Source: Armatimonadota bacterium
GTDB lineage: Bacteria > Bacteroidota > Ignavibacteria > OLB7
Direction of reading: 5' to 3'
Assembly (NCBI GenBank): GCA_020850315.1
Contig: JADZEY010000027.1
Span: 1 to 52,044 of the forward strand
DNA length: 52,044 nucleotides
In this document: positions 39,210-46,067 of the stretch, one piece after another
How positions within the stretch are numbered: position 1 is the first letter of the stretch
Layout: every line of letters begins with the position of its first letter
Made by a program: the position numbers and the translations under genes
Notes under the pieces: model-generated
Told to the model about the DNA's origin: nothing
Databases searched by the model: none
Seen by the model: only the letters and a program-made list of their open reading frames with translations

Positions 39210-39426
39210 CCGTTGGTGATGCTTGCAAGTAGATCTGAGTAGGCACAGATTTCCAGCCAGAGCTTTCCGAACCCGTGCGCAGTTTCAGGTGAAGATGCTT
39301 CGACAAGCTCAGCATGAGCGGGGGAGTGAATTCCCCCGTCGGTGCCAGCAATCAGCGACGAAGCGACCTCACGAATTTCTGGGAGGCCATAGAACAGACT
39401 ACCCTACCCGATACCGCCTCAGTTTC
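39210..39426. other. Gap upstream of the Pho array
   Basis: No gene is supported. A widespread TGCTTCGACAAGCTCAGCAT-type intergenic repeat lies at 39296-39325. Nothing else stands out before the array that starts at 39427. Confidence 0.5.
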
Positions 39427-39482
39427 TTAACATTCCCGTAACACTGGCATCACACAGCCATAACACTCCGCTAATAATTTTG
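39427..39482 (+). promoter_or_regulatory. Candidate Pho box: five hexamers at 11-bp period plus -7 element
   Basis: Hexamers TTAACA (39427), GTAACA (39438), ATCACA (39449), ATAACA (39460) and CTAATA (39471) recur every 11 bases. This is the repeat length used by PhoB/PhoP-type regulators, and TTAACA-like repeats at this period are the known B. subtilis PhoP pattern. TAATTTTG (39475-39482) is an exact TAnnTTTG -7 element, but no TTG stands at -33, as expected for an activator-dependent promoter. The genes behind it are porin, pst and phoU. Confidence 0.65.
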
Positions 39483-39581
39483 CGTTTGCTGGAGATGCAG
39501 AGCAGGCTGTGGTAACGGCCGATACCATCCAACAGCCAGCATCCCTCCAGCCATTTCCGACACAAACCCAAAAACCAAAGA

Positions 39582-40919
39582 ATGGGAACATTGATACGCA
39601 AGTTTTTGGTGCTATCTGCCCTTGCCGGACTTAGCATTGGCATTGCACACGCACAACAAGAAGGGGATGGAACAGAACCAACATCGCCAGAAGAAGTGCA
39701 GGGTGATGTGGAGACGATAAAGGAACGGATGGACCTTGCCGAAGGGACGCTTGAGAAGCTAACTCAGCTGAAAATCTCTGGTTATATCCAAGCCGAGTGG
39801 CAGCATTTTGACCAAACCACCAGCCCGCAAGGGCGTGCACTGTTCAGCGACCCACGGCGCAATGCTTTTCTGATACGCCGTGGCCGCATCAAATTCCAGC
39901 ATCGCTCCAGCTGGCTAACTGCGGTTCTGTATCCCGACATCAGCGAGCGTGGGGTTGTGCTGAAGGAGGCATATGTGGATTTCGGTTTGCTTCCCGACAA
40001 CGAACTGAACATCACCGTTGGCTCCTTCAATCGCCCTAATTATGAGGTTGAGATATCCTCCAGCAACCGCGAATCCACCGAACGCGCGCAAGTCACCCGT
40101 GCATTCTACCCCGATGAGCGCGACTTGGGATTGATGGCCACCTACTATCCAACGATTGCCGAATCGTTCACACCAAAGCTGCAAGTTGGATTGTTCAATG
40201 GTGGTGGTGCAACTGCTGCATCGGAAGTGGACCCCTACAAGGATATCATTGCCCGCCTCACGTTCCCGCTTCCGTTGGGAGCCGAGTCCCCGGTTCAGAT
40301 TGATCTTGGCGCGTCGCTGTACCACGGCGGAATCCCCGTGGCGACCGACTCGCTGCTGGAAACCGTAGATGGCAAAACCAAGCTGGTGTTCAACGATGCC
40401 ACCGGCGATTTGCGTGGCTTGGGGAACCGGAAAAATTTCAACGTAGAAGGGCAAATCTTCCTTGATCTGCTTCCGATTGGTGGAACAATCATCAAAGGGG
40501 AAGTGATGACCGGAAGCCGCCCAACCGCCGGAACCGCAGCAACCTCGGCATCGGTAGGAATCACCAAAGGAAGCGATGGAAAGGATAGCATCCGAATCGT
40601 TCCCGGGGCCGCCGCAAAGCCGGTGCAAGTCCGCAATCAAATGGGCTACTACGGCTATTTCATCCAGAACTTCGGCAGCAGTGCCCAGCTTGCCCTGAAG
40701 TATGATTACTTCGACCGAAACACCGACATGGAGGGCGCGCAAGTGACCTCCTCCGGGGATGTAGCCGTGGGGGTGCTTGGGTTTGGTGGAAGCGTCTTTG
40801 TGGGGAACGCCCGCATCACGCTGTGGCATGAGATTCCCACCACTGAACAAGACTCCTTCGGCGGCGCGGAAGATCTGAAGGACAACAAAACAACCGTTCG
40901 CTTCCAGTACAAATTCTAA
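39582..40919 (+). CDS. Phosphate-selective porin (OprO/OprP-like)
   Basis: 445 residues. The signal peptide is MGTLIRKFLVLSALAGLSIG, cleaved near AHAQQ. A short coiled coil (VETIKERMDLAEGTLEKLTQ) precedes the beta-barrel, as in trimeric OprO/OprP porins. Barrel strands include LKISGYIQAEWQHFD, RRGRIKFQHRSSWLTAV and ending KTTVRFQYKF, with a C-terminal Phe. The porin would let phosphate or polyphosphate cross the outer membrane. It heads the phosphate block, with the Pho-like array ahead of it and pstS 46 bases downstream. Confidence 0.93.
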   Translation: MGTLIRKFLVLSALAGLSIGIAHAQQEGDGTEPTSPEEVQGDVETIKERMDLAEGTLEKLTQLKISGYIQAEWQHFDQTTSPQGRALFSDPRRNAFLIRRGRIKFQHRSSWLTAVLYPDISERGVVLKEAYVDFGLLPDNELNITVGSFNRPNYEVEISSSNRESTERAQVTRAFYPDERDLGLMATYYPTIAESFTPKLQVGLFNGGGATAASEVDPYKDIIARLTFPLPLGAESPVQIDLGASLYHGGIPVATDSLLETVDGKTKLVFNDATGDLRGLGNRKNFNVEGQIFLDLLPIGGTIIKGEVMTGSRPTAGTAATSASVGITKGSDGKDSIRIVPGAAAKPVQVRNQMGYYGYFIQNFGSSAQLALKYDYFDRNTDMEGAQVTSSGDVAVGVLGFGGSVFVGNARITLWHEIPTTEQDSFGGAEDLKDNKTTVRFQYKF

Positions 40920-40965: not shown

Positions 40966-41796
40966 ATGCGCAAAAAACTGACTTTCCTGTTGACGCTTAT
41001 CACCGCCTGCATTGGCCTGTATGCCTTCATGCCGGTGGATGTTATCACCGTGAAAGGCTCGGACACCATGGTGATCCTTGCACAGAAATGGGCCGAGACC
41101 TATCAATCCAAAAACTCTGGCGTTTCCATCCGCGTCACCGGCGGGGGATCGGGAACCGGGATTTCGGCACTGATTAACGGAACCACCGACATCTGCAACT
41201 CATCCCGCCCAATGACCAAAACCGAAAAGCAACAGCTGAAAAACCGCTACGGATCGCCAGGCGTGGAAGTCCGCGTTGCAAAGGATGGCATCACCATCTA
41301 CGTCCATCCCTCCAACGGCGTTTCCAAACTTTCCATCGGCCAGCTGAAAGGGATTTACATGGGAACCATCACCAACTGGAGCCAAGTTGGTGGGAAGAAC
41401 GCTCGCATCATCGTCTATGGCCGCGAGAATAGTTCGGGGACGTATGCCTTCTTTAAGGAGCACGTGCTGGGCGGCTACGATTTCGGCGGAAGCGTCCAGA
41501 CCCTTCCGGGAACAGCCGCAGTGGTGAACGCCGTTGCCAAGGATCCGAACGGTATCGGCTACGGTGGGTTTGGGTATGCTAAAGGGATTAAGGTTTGCCA
41601 AGTGAGCACCACCGACGGCGGCGCAGGGATTATGCCATCGGATCAGACCATCAACAACGGATCGTATCCCATCAGCCGCTACCTGTACATCTATCTGAAA
41701 AATCGCCCAACCGGCGCGCTGAAATCCTACGTGGATTGGATCATCTCCGCCGAAGGTCAATCCGTCGTGAAAAAAACTGGATACTTCCCGCTGTAA
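40966..41796 (+). CDS. pstS: Phosphate ABC transporter substrate-binding protein PstS
   Basis: 276 residues, with an N-terminal signal peptide (RKKLTFLLTLITACIGLYAF). Phosphate-binding segments are VKGSDTM near the N-terminus, GGGSGTGISALINGTTDICN and GRENSSGTYAFFKE. It is smaller than E. coli PstS (about 346 residues), as in the compact PstS class. No lipobox is seen, so it should be a soluble periplasmic protein. It is separated from pstC by 254 bases holding a strong hairpin. Confidence 0.95.
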   Translation: MRKKLTFLLTLITACIGLYAFMPVDVITVKGSDTMVILAQKWAETYQSKNSGVSIRVTGGGSGTGISALINGTTDICNSSRPMTKTEKQQLKNRYGSPGVEVRVAKDGITIYVHPSNGVSKLSIGQLKGIYMGTITNWSQVGGKNARIIVYGRENSSGTYAFFKEHVLGGYDFGGSVQTLPGTAAVVNAVAKDPNGIGYGGFGYAKGIKVCQVSTTDGGAGIMPSDQTINNGSYPISRYLYIYLKNRPTGALKSYVDWIISAEGQSVVKKTGYFPL

Positions 41797-42050: not shown

Positions 42051-43304
42051 ATGCAGTCTGAACAACCAGAACCGAGCAACCAACCCCGACCAGCTTCCGA
42101 TGCTGAGGATCAGCCCGTGGCCGCTCGGCTGGTTGCTGCGCAGCATCCCCCGCTCACCCAAAAAAAACGCCGAATCGGCGAGCGGTTGATTGAGCTTGGG
42201 ATCTACTCCGTCTCGGCAACCTCCATCATCTTCATCTTCCTGATCTTCCTGTTTGTTTTCCGCGAAGCATCACCAATCTTCTTTGGCGGAGCGGACGGAG
42301 GGAAGAAGGATACGGCTGTGGCAACCGCACCAGCTACTGGGCCAACTACTCCACCAATCATCAGCAACACCACAGCCGATGACACCGCCGAGCTTGAGTC
42401 GGAGCAGTACAACCCCGAAGCGGAAGCACTTCCCACGCCGCAGCCAACGGCCTCCAATCCGCCCCCTGCAACACCCCAAGATGATGCCGAGCGCGCCCGG
42501 AAAATTGTTGGGGAAGGCTATCCAATTCTGGAGCATGAGTCGCCGGTGAACGTCAGCTACTTGGCCTACGATAATTGGCAACCGAACTCGGAGCATCCAC
42601 GCTACGGCATTTATCCAATTATTGTCGGCACGCTAAAAACCACGATTGTGGCAATGCTGTTCGCTGTTCCGCTGGCAATTCTTGCGGCGATGTACACTGC
42701 CTTTTTCGCGCCAAAATGGATCCGCGAAACACTGAAACCAGCCATTGAGTTGCTTGCCGGAATCCCCTCGGTGGTGCTCGGCTTTTTCTGCTTGATGACC
42801 GTCGCCAGCGTTGTCCAAACCCTTTTCGGTCTCGATTTTCGATTGAACTCCATTGTTGGCGGTATCGGGCTTGGGCTGGCGGTTATCCCAATCGTTTATA
42901 CCATCTGCGACGACGCATTGCGTGCGGTTCCGGGATCGCTTCGCGAAGCATCGCTGGCGGTGGGGGCAAGCGAGTGGCAAACGGCCTACCGGGTGATGCT
43001 TCCGGCGGCAACGCCAGGGATTTTTGCGGCAATTTTGCTTGGCATCGGTCGCGCTTTTGGCGAAACAATGATTGCACTGATGGCCACCGGAAACGCCGGA
43101 ACATTTAGCTGGAGTTTCACCGAACCAGTGCGCACATTTGCCGCAACCATCGGTGCAGAAATGGGGGAAGTAGTGTTCGGTTCTCCCCATTATCAAGTGC
43201 TATTTTTCTTGGGTGTTTTGCTCTTCATTTTCTCGTTCATCATCAACTTCATCACGGAGTTTTATGTGAAGGAACGGCTCATCAAAAAATTCCGGGGGGC
43301 GTAA
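42051..43304 (+). CDS. pstC: Phosphate ABC transporter permease PstC, with large insert
   Basis: 417 residues, about 100 longer than E. coli PstC (319). TM1 is at about 51-71 (YSVSATSIIFIFLIFLFVF). Residues about 80-160 are a Pro/Thr/Ala-rich periplasmic insert with no TM. The usual core then resumes (YGIYPIIVGTLKTTIVAML, LLAGIPSVVLGFF) with the EAA-like loop LREASLAVGASEWQTAYRVM that contacts PstB. The N-terminus is a Pro/Gln-rich extension. pstA starts 4 bases after the stop. Confidence 0.93.
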   Translation: MQSEQPEPSNQPRPASDAEDQPVAARLVAAQHPPLTQKKRRIGERLIELGIYSVSATSIIFIFLIFLFVFREASPIFFGGADGGKKDTAVATAPATGPTTPPIISNTTADDTAELESEQYNPEAEALPTPQPTASNPPPATPQDDAERARKIVGEGYPILEHESPVNVSYLAYDNWQPNSEHPRYGIYPIIVGTLKTTIVAMLFAVPLAILAAMYTAFFAPKWIRETLKPAIELLAGIPSVVLGFFCLMTVASVVQTLFGLDFRLNSIVGGIGLGLAVIPIVYTICDDALRAVPGSLREASLAVGASEWQTAYRVMLPAATPGIFAAILLGIGRAFGETMIALMATGNAGTFSWSFTEPVRTFAATIGAEMGEVVFGSPHYQVLFFLGVLLFIFSFIINFITEFYVKERLIKKFRGA

Positions 43305-43307
43305 GCA

Positions 43308-44441
43308 ATGGCCAAGAACAAAACAATTTTTCATGGCGAGCGGGGAAGCATCGTAGGCTTTTTTGCCACGGGGCTTCCGCTGGTAGCGGTTGTCATTGTG
43401 CTGCTGTTTATTGTGGTGATCGTCGGCAATTTCATCATCACCGGATCGGGTTATCTTAGTTGGGAATTTTTAACCGATTCCCCACGCAACATGAACACCG
43501 AAGGGGGAATTTTTCCGGCTATTTACGGAACTGTCCTCCTGGTGTTGATTATGACCCTTGCAGCGGTTCCGGTCGGGACCATCACGGCACTCTATTTAAC
43601 TGAGTATGCAAAGCGAACCTCCATTTTTGCGCGTGTTATTCGCTTTGCGGTGAACACGTTGGCTGGCATTCCATCCATTGTTTTTGGGCTGTTCGGTTTG
43701 GGCTTTTTTATCCAAACCGTCGGGAGCCAGATAGACGCTGCCCGCTACAGCGCAAAAATGGATGATTTGCGGACGGTGCTGGCTGTGAGCTCATCGCCGC
43801 TGGTGGCTGGCAAGCAAGCAACCATCAACGATATTAAAGTATTTCTGCAGAACAATGAGTTCGATTGGGAAGCGCAACTGCGCGAGTTAGATGCCTACCC
43901 AGAAGGAACCGTTGCCGCTGTAAATACCGATAGAGTAGTGGAATATCTTTCCGGCAAAAAAGAATTGGAATGGGGCAAGCCATCGCTTATCTGGGCCGCG
44001 CTCACGCTGGCATTGCTGACGCTTCCGGTGGTAATCGTTTCGGTGGAAGAAGCCTTGCGAACAGTACCTCGGGAAATCAGGGAAGCCAGTTTAGCGCTGG
44101 GTGCAACCCGCTGGGAAACAATCTGGCGAATCGTTCTCCCAAATTGTGTCCCCGGAATTTTAACAGGATCAATTTTAGCAGTTAGCCGTGGCGCGGGTGA
44201 GGTTGCACCGATTTTATTTACGGGTGCGGTGTACTCCTTGCAGGAACTGCCGTCGTCGCTTAGCGACCAGTTTATGCACTTGGGTTATCACCTCTATATT
44301 CTTGCCACCCAGTCGCCCGATGTTGATGCTACCCGACCGTTGCAGTACGCCACAACGTTGGTGCTGCTTGGCCTAACATTGGCGTTAAACCTCACAGCAA
44401 TCATGCTCCGCTCACGATTGCGGAAGCGGAAAATGGTGTGA
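43308..44441 (+). CDS. pstA: Phosphate ABC transporter permease PstA, with insertion
   Basis: 377 residues, about 80 longer than E. coli PstA (296). The usual core is seen (GGIFPAIYGTVLLVLIMTLA, NTLAGIPSIVFGLFGLGFFI) and the EAA-like loop REIREASLALGATRWETIWR. Residues about 138-225 insert a mostly soluble region (QIDAARYSAKMDDLRTVLAV, NDIKVFLQNNEFDWEAQLRE) into the extracytoplasmic loop between TM3 and TM4. The gap to pstB is 80 bases and holds a run of ACTGACTACTG-like repeats. Confidence 0.93.
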   Translation: MAKNKTIFHGERGSIVGFFATGLPLVAVVIVLLFIVVIVGNFIITGSGYLSWEFLTDSPRNMNTEGGIFPAIYGTVLLVLIMTLAAVPVGTITALYLTEYAKRTSIFARVIRFAVNTLAGIPSIVFGLFGLGFFIQTVGSQIDAARYSAKMDDLRTVLAVSSSPLVAGKQATINDIKVFLQNNEFDWEAQLRELDAYPEGTVAAVNTDRVVEYLSGKKELEWGKPSLIWAALTLALLTLPVVIVSVEEALRTVPREIREASLALGATRWETIWRIVLPNCVPGILTGSILAVSRGAGEVAPILFTGAVYSLQELPSSLSDQFMHLGYHLYILATQSPDVDATRPLQYATTLVLLGLTLALNLTAIMLRSRLRKRKMV

Positions 44442-44521: not shown

Positions 44522-45289
44522 ATGAAGAAAGAAGAAATCACAAAAATCCATACAAATAACTTATCGCTGTATTATGGCGATAAGCAAGCACTGAAAGACA
44601 TCTCAATGGCGATGTACGCTAATAAAGTGACAGCGTTTATCGGCCCATCGGGATGCGGAAAAAGCACGTTTATCCGTTCGCTCAATCGGATGAATGATTT
44701 GATTGAAGGGGTGCGAATTACTGGTGAAGTAAAAATTGAGGATGTGAATATCTACGCTCCGGAAGTGAGCGTTGTGAATTTGCGAAAGCGGGTGGGAATG
44801 GTTTTCCAGAAATCGAACCCATTCCCAAAATCTATTTATGAAAACATCGCCTACGGGCCAAGAATTAACGGCATCACCGACAAAGCTCAGCTTGATGATA
44901 TTGTTGAGCAAAGCCTGAAAGGTGCGGCACTGTGGAATGAAAGCAAGGATCGCTTGGCAGCATCGGCATTGTCGCTATCGGGAGGGCAGCAGCAGCGGTT
45001 GTGCATTGCCCGTGCCATTGCTGTCAACCCCGATATTTTGCTGATGGACGAGCCTTGTTCGGCACTGGATCCAATATCAACCAGCAAGGTTGAGGAGCTT
45101 ATTTTGGAGTTGAAGGAGAACTACACCATCGTGATTGTCACCCACAGTATGCAGCAGGCCGCGCGCGTCAGCGATTACACAGCCTTCTTTTATGTTGGCG
45201 AGCTGATTGAATTTGGCCCAACCCGTGATATTTTTACCAACCCGAAGAAAAAACAGACCGAAGATTATATCACCGGGCGGTTTGGATAG
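44522..45289 (+). CDS. pstB: Phosphate ABC transporter ATPase PstB
   Basis: 255 residues, normal for PstB. Walker A is GPSGCGKST, the signature is LSGGQQQR, Walker B is [13 protein letters not shown] and the H-loop is VTHSMQQ. A Q-loop segment ([20 protein letters not shown]) matches the PstB type. It hydrolyses ATP to drive phosphate through PstC/PstA. Confidence 0.98.
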
Positions 45290-45314: not shown

Positions 45315-46067
45315 ATGTCGAAAAAACAAATACTGAACAGAGAAAACAGCATGATTAAAACATTCGAGGATCAGCTTGATAAACTTCGCACCCGCATCAT
45401 TAAAATGGGGAGCTTGGTGGATGAGCAGGTGGAGTACGCCTTCCGTTCGCTGGTTGAGTGGGACACTGCAATGGCGCGGTTGGTGATGGATCGCGACAGC
45501 AAAGTTGATAAACTTGATTTTAAGATTGAGAAACAGTGCCAACGAATTTTTGCATTGCAGCAGCCAGTTGCGCGCGACCTTCGGTTGATTATGGCCGCTT
45601 TAAAAATCAATAGCGACCTTGAGCGGATGGGGGATCTTGCGTTCAACGTTGCGCGTGCTGTGGAGGGATTGCTTCCGTTCCGCACGTTTGTTGAGCAGTT
45701 GGACCTCTCGCAGCTGACCGAGGCGGTGCACACCATGGTGAAGTTGACCATTGACAGCTTCGTCAACAACGACCCTGAACTGGCCATCACCACCATGAAA
45801 AGTGATATGCGGGTGGATCAGTATGAAGCCCGATTAAATCGCCGTATTGTGGAGATGATGAAGCAGAATCCAGAATTTATTGAAGGGGGGGCAATGCTGA
45901 TTGTGTTGCTGCGAAATATGGAGCGGCTTGCCGATCACGCAACCAACATTGCCGAAGATGTGATCTTTTTCACCGAAGCAAAAATTGTCCGTAACCGCTT
46001 CGATTCCGAAGCGTTCGACGCGCTGCAACGTGATCTGCATGGGGAAGAAGGGAATGATGATGAATAA
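45315..46067 (+). CDS. phoU: Phosphate signalling protein PhoU
   Basis: 250 residues from the ATG at 45315, preceded by AAGGAA; a longer frame to 45207 would overlap pstB. PhoU has two three-helix repeats with metal-binding motifs: SDLERMGDLAFNVARA in the first repeat and RNMERLADHATNIAED in the second. It links Pst transport activity to the PhoR-like kinase. No phoB or phoR gene is in the window. Confidence 0.96.
   Translation: MSKKQILNRENSMIKTFEDQLDKLRTRIIKMGSLVDEQVEYAFRSLVEWDTAMARLVMDRDSKVDKLDFKIEKQCQRIFALQQPVARDLRLIMAALKINSDLERMGDLAFNVARAVEGLLPFRTFVEQLDLSQLTEAVHTMVKLTIDSFVNNDPELAITTMKSDMRVDQYEARLNRRIVEMMKQNPEFIEGGAMLIVLLRNMERLADHATNIAEDVIFFTEAKIVRNRFDSEAFDALQRDLHGEEGNDDE

Follow-up and report, generated by a model that had tools for sequence, protein, structure and literature searches.

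An array of 11-bp Pho-box-like repeats at fixed distance from a Bacteroidota-type −7 element upstream of a porin-pstSCAB-phoU operon

The window analyzed here, a stretch of 52,044 nucleotides, carries on its forward strand an operon for phosphate uptake. It opens with an outer membrane porin of 445 amino acids that is putatively OprO/OprP-like (39582 to 40919), followed by the phosphate-binding protein gene pstS (40966 to 41796; TIGR02136 above the cut-off), the permease genes pstC (42051 to 43304) and pstA (43308 to 44441), the ATPase gene pstB (44522 to 45289; 79% identity in family relatives), and phoU (45315 to 46067; TIGR02135 above the cut-off and two matches to PF01895). The first-pass annotation had named these genes a phosphate-type porin, pstSCAB, and phoU, and open reading frames, profiles, and a gene order conserved in relatives, pstC and pstA included, bear this out for pstSCAB and phoU. 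The porin itself has no Pfam match, PF07396 is matched by 2 of the 11 members of its family, and the family profile matches OprO weakly (E value of 0.0016). A structural model of medium confidence (pLDDT 66) predicts a barrel, and its Foldseek matches in the PDB include OprP at rank 3 as well as OprO, among many porins; a predicted fold of this kind is unable to tell OprP from other porins. The genome encodes no alkaline phosphatase of the PF00245 family. It does have a second pstS-like gene (G000:C123:7293-8045, L037), 55% identical to the first, which lacks both pstCAB neighbors and the repeats described below and is also present in the family relatives.

Upstream of the porin, on the same strand, four hexamers follow each other at exact 11-bp steps: TTAACA (39427 to 39432), GTAACA (39438 to 39443), ATCACA (39449 to 39454), and ATAACA (39460 to 39465). 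Unit 1 reads CTTAACA in context, and the others have the form (G/A)TAACA except for TCACA in unit 3; TTAACA is the prevailing form of the unit in relatives. The array thus has more than the two direct repeats of a conserved core expected at least of a Pho box, and it fits the TTAAC or TTTAACA core of the cyanobacterial and Riemerella type. It is followed by TAATTTTG (39475 to 39482), an exact TAnnTTTG, the −7 element of the Bacteroidota primary sigma factor, whose TA lies 14 bp from the start of TAACA in unit 4. When the entire window was scanned without any consensus (four copies, period 11, five columns), position 39428 was the sole place scoring 19 of 20. The intergenic region was then permuted 5000 times, and none of the permutations matched this score at period 11, nor did any of 2000 permutations when all periods from 8 to 14 were allowed.

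The array had initially been described as five repeats ending beside an exact TAnnTTTG, on a promoter marked by the lack of a −33 element. The five hexamers, with starts at 39427, 39438, 39449, 39460, and 39471, and the adjoining element are indeed present. However, the last hexamer, CTAATA (39471 to 39476), shares bases with the −7 element and lacks conservation, reading CCAATA, CCGATA, and CCAATA in relatives, in which only the TA belonging to the −7 element is kept. We therefore count four units, not five. No TTG lies near −33 in the window promoter, as had been said, but this does not set the promoter apart, since no −33 motif was identifiable in the published F. johnsoniae analysis quoted in PMC7366714.

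The combination of repeats and −7 element is rare in the genome. TAACA N6 TAACA N9 TAnnTTTG, with at most two mismatches allowed, occurs once in 4.24 Mb, at the porin-pst promoter. In each of three relatives the pattern likewise has a single site, again at the promoter of porin-pst, with one phytase-like gene in addition in one of them (G002). Among further places in the genome of the window there were no convincing targets, the weak matches being one inside an open reading frame and one before an unrelated open reading frame. No Rfam match for a leader RNA element was found within the window. A sigma-70 promoter was considered as well; the single weak match (9/12) overlaps the array and was judged irrelevant. 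Separately, TTCGACAAGCTCAGCATGAGC at 39299 to 39319, 108 bp upstream of the box, is a 21-bp repeat dispersed through the genome, where it has 73 copies (at most two mismatches), compared to 0 for the reversed control.

Among named genomes, those nearest to the genome of the window are bins of uncultured Chlorobiota/Bacteroidetes; most of the wider class carries the label Ignavibacteria. When the regions upstream of the porin were aligned across the four genomes of the family, as had been proposed at the outset, the 11-bp phase proved to be conserved: a single island stands out between diverged flanks, consisting of the four units and TAnnTTTG at identical spacing in all four genomes. TTAACA of unit 1, GTAA of unit 2, and CATAA at unit 4 are invariant within it, and unit 3 is GTAACA in two relatives. 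The two more distant genomes of this footprint have porins of 55 to 59% identity.

Across the class, we scored the box and −7 element jointly, using a score built from the motif of the window itself; the test of phase was not tuned to the other genomes. Both elements, in the register of the window, precede 18 of 27 pst operons at a joint score of at least 16 of 21, which none of 200 dinucleotide shuffles reached. A score of 16 was likewise reached by none of 14 stand-alone pstS genes, including the second pstS of the window genome on contig 123. A clear box is absent from the other 9 of the 27 class pst operons, among them all four that belong to one family. A scan of 61 class genomes found 28 sites with the pattern in phase, 7 of them exact, compared to 9 sites for the reversed pattern, 10 when the spacer was lengthened by 3 bp, and 11 when it was shortened by 3 bp; several of the shorter-spacer matches are true arrays in which the next repeat imitates TAnnTTTG. 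Two genomes of one family (L153 and L160) have arrays of degenerate TTAACG/TTAACA units, and there TAGCTTTG lies one base farther away, at offset 15.

The identity of the downstream gene played no part in defining the pattern. The genes behind the in-phase sites of the class are largely those of phosphate starvation. They include pstS (three sites), phoB-phoR (three species), 5′-nucleotidase (four), the porin of a pst operon and another Porin_O_P-like porin, alkaline phosphatase, type I phosphodiesterase, PAP2 phosphatase, and metallophosphoesterase. A Pho regulon is composed in this way, and the box thus lies upstream of pst and other phosphate starvation genes, as a Pho box should. In three species of one family, an in-phase box (L120, L122, and L124 at 1501-1534) precedes an ArsC-like low-molecular-weight phosphatase gene, which suggests that arsenate handling is under Pho control there. 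In L124, the ArsC-like gene is followed by an ArsR-like gene.

The spacing between repeats and −7 element can be followed beyond the class. Arrays upstream of Bacteroidota pst loci were chosen solely for their repeats (a match at 13 or more of 15 positions), blind to the promoter, and TAnnTTTG (at least 5 of 6) was then scored at offsets of 5 to 40 from the last TAACA start to the TA. It was found at offset 14, the spacing of the window, in 20 of the 50 arrays and at offset 25, that is, 14 plus 11 or one repeat farther, in 7 more; every other offset had between 0 and 2. The phase-locked examples include Mariniphaga, Stygiobacter, and Flavobacterium, the last with F. glycines, whose box lies in L242. 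Outside identified Bacteroidota, TAnnTTTG at offset 14 accompanied none of six arrays, a small sample (Calditrichaeota, Chitinivibrionales, Fibrobacteres, Zixibacteria, and one unassigned bin). This would be expected of a −7 element that belongs to the sigma factor of Bacteroidota. The pst loci L193, L200, and L255 (Calditrichaeota, Fibrobacteres, and Zixibacteria) have 11-bp TAACA arrays of this sort, without TAnnTTTG at the Bacteroidota offset. In one family, the box before phoBR keeps the phase and has TAATTTTA, but behind the array upstream of pstS (L062, L063, and L064) a −7-like element stands at a different offset; spacing may therefore vary between promoters of one regulon.

The footprint, the class loci, and the phase lock agree with the first-pass annotation in its main point, a Pho-box-like 11-bp array working with a Bacteroidota −7 element. 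Its suggestion of a lineage-specific box did not survive the comparison, since the same layout spans Ignavibacteria, Bacteroidales, and Flavobacterium and a TTAAC core is known from elsewhere (PMC9603813, PMC1906773).

A candidate for the regulator is encoded on another contig. The window genome has four OmpR-family regulators, and one of them (G000:C25:9235-9930) reaches 256.5 bits on the NCBIfam Bacteroidota PhoB model, just under the cut-off of 270, compared to 154 to 166 for its three paralogues. The gene beside it encodes a kinase of PhoR/PnpS-like type that likewise stays under the cut-offs, so that the genome has an adjacent pair of a PhoB-type regulator and a PhoR-type kinase, both short of the curated thresholds. 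The candidate is 48 to 53% identical to the PhoBs encoded beside the pst loci of relatives (best among the loci compared), compared to 33 to 35% to its paralogues, and it shares with those PhoBs the recognition helix RT(V/I)DVHI...R, its own being of the RTVDVHI type. In its DNA-binding domain it matches E. coli PhoB with an E value of about 1e-18. The promoter of the candidate's own gene has no clear box.

Could a different regulator read the array? Given the three further OmpR-family regulators in the genome, one can envision an ArcA-, RprY-, or OmpR-like protein at these sites, with the link to phosphate being indirect; ArcA reads similar TTAA-type repeats, and the Riemerella PhoP motif was noted as resembling the E. 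coli ArcA motif (PMC9603813). The three paralogues, however, fall far behind on the PhoB model, and in relatives it is mostly phosphate genes, phoB-phoR itself among them, that stand behind the same box in the same phase. We consider this explanation quite improbable. It is also conceivable that PhoB, once bound here, represses the operon or has a dual role, as unit 4 lies about 26 bp before the start predicted from the sequence, where polymerase contacts DNA. Such a role seems very unlikely, given that the pst operons of E. coli and B. fragilis are activated by PhoB (PMC3547664) and that an activator contacting sigma would be expected to keep a constant distance from the −7 element.

At the far end of the scale is an ordinary constitutive TAnnTTTG promoter that happens to lie below a chance or AT-rich repeat. 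In favor of it are the completeness of the −7 element and the many promoters of Bacteroidota that function without a detectable −33 element (PMC7366714). A chance repeat is nevertheless hard to reconcile with the permutations, with the uniqueness of the array in the genome, with its base-for-base conservation in relatives, and with a phase lock that is phylum wide. The conserved footprint of the array already contradicts this explanation, and we give it next to no weight.

Judging from its sequence, the array is very likely a binding array for PhoB. We are confident, short of certainty, in reading it together with TAnnTTTG as a Pho box through which PhoB would activate porin-pstSCAB-phoU at a sigma-ABfr promoter that needs no −33 element. 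We infer that the signal is low phosphate, upon which PhoR would phosphorylate PhoB. Phosphorylated PhoB would then bind the four (T/G/A)TAACA repeats on one face of the helix. Two Pho-box units bind one tandem PhoB dimer, and thus four units would suit two dimers arranged head to tail. The bound protein may recruit to the adjoining TAnnTTTG an RNA polymerase that carries the primary sigma factor of Bacteroidota, taking over the work of the −33 element and turning on the operon; the fixed 14-bp distance is what a contact between PhoB and sigma would require. By analogy with F. psychrophilum, in which TAnnTTTG spans −12 to −5 (PMC9723704), transcription is predicted to start near 39487. The leader should then be about 95 nucleotides long and the TAACA units should start at −26, −37, −48, and −59, so that the array would cover the −33 region. 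The simplest reading is that the activator stands in for the contact with the upstream part of the promoter, a role that PhoB has in E. coli.

Whether Bacteroidota in general share one geometry, with PhoB on 11-bp TTAACA repeats replacing the −33 contact of their unusual primary sigma factor and with the last repeat 2 to 3 bp nearer to the −7 element than the E. coli box is to the −10, seems to us evenly balanced. If they do, activator-dependent initiation by sigma-ABfr would follow one rule throughout the phylum. The action of activators with the Bacteroidota sigma factor is little explored, and the phase lock offers a concrete spacing for its study; we regard this fixed spacing to the −7 element as the part most worth taking further. 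A recognizable box also makes Pho regulons predictable from sequence in Bacteroidota, much of which is uncultured, and supplies ready-made low-phosphate promoters for the genetics of Flavobacterium and Bacteroides.

Repeats of this general kind have relatives in several phyla. The PhoP box of Bacillus subtilis consists of TTAACA-like 6-mers at a spacing of about 11 bp, at a Firmicute sigma-A promoter. Pho boxes as 11-nucleotide direct repeats are textbook knowledge (PMC4415409), and those of E. coli, 8-bp boxes with 3-bp linkers placed just before the −10 (PMC1906773, PMC4415409), resemble the window array in lying upstream of the pst operon, at the place of the upstream promoter element. They differ in their core, CTGTCAT rather than the TAACA of the window, in their partner, TATAAT rather than TAnnTTTG, and in the distance from the last box to the TA, about 10 bp (PMC1906773) compared to about 7 bp in the window. 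The cyanobacterial SphR box, with at least three tandem CTTAACCT and 3-bp linkers (PMC1906773), shares TTAAC at 11-bp steps but belongs to another phylum and promoter class and has no fixed coupling to TAnnTTTG. Within Bacteroidota, the PhoPR system of Riemerella anatipestifer is induced by phosphate starvation, and TTTAACA are the most conserved bases of its PhoP motif from DAP-seq; the accessible part of that report (PMC9603813) gives the motif, without an 11-bp multi-unit array or a spacing to the −7 element. In Bacteroides fragilis, PhoB is required for expression of pstC at low phosphate and binds the pst promoter in vitro; the probe was 512 bp, and the text of the paper gives no box sequence (PMC3547664). 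We found no published Bacteroidota Pho-box consensus or operator with a defined spacing to TAnnTTTG in the open-access literature, which is weak evidence of absence. As far as could be found, then, a Pho box of this general kind was already known, and what is new is the phase-locked coupling of its repeats to TAnnTTTG.
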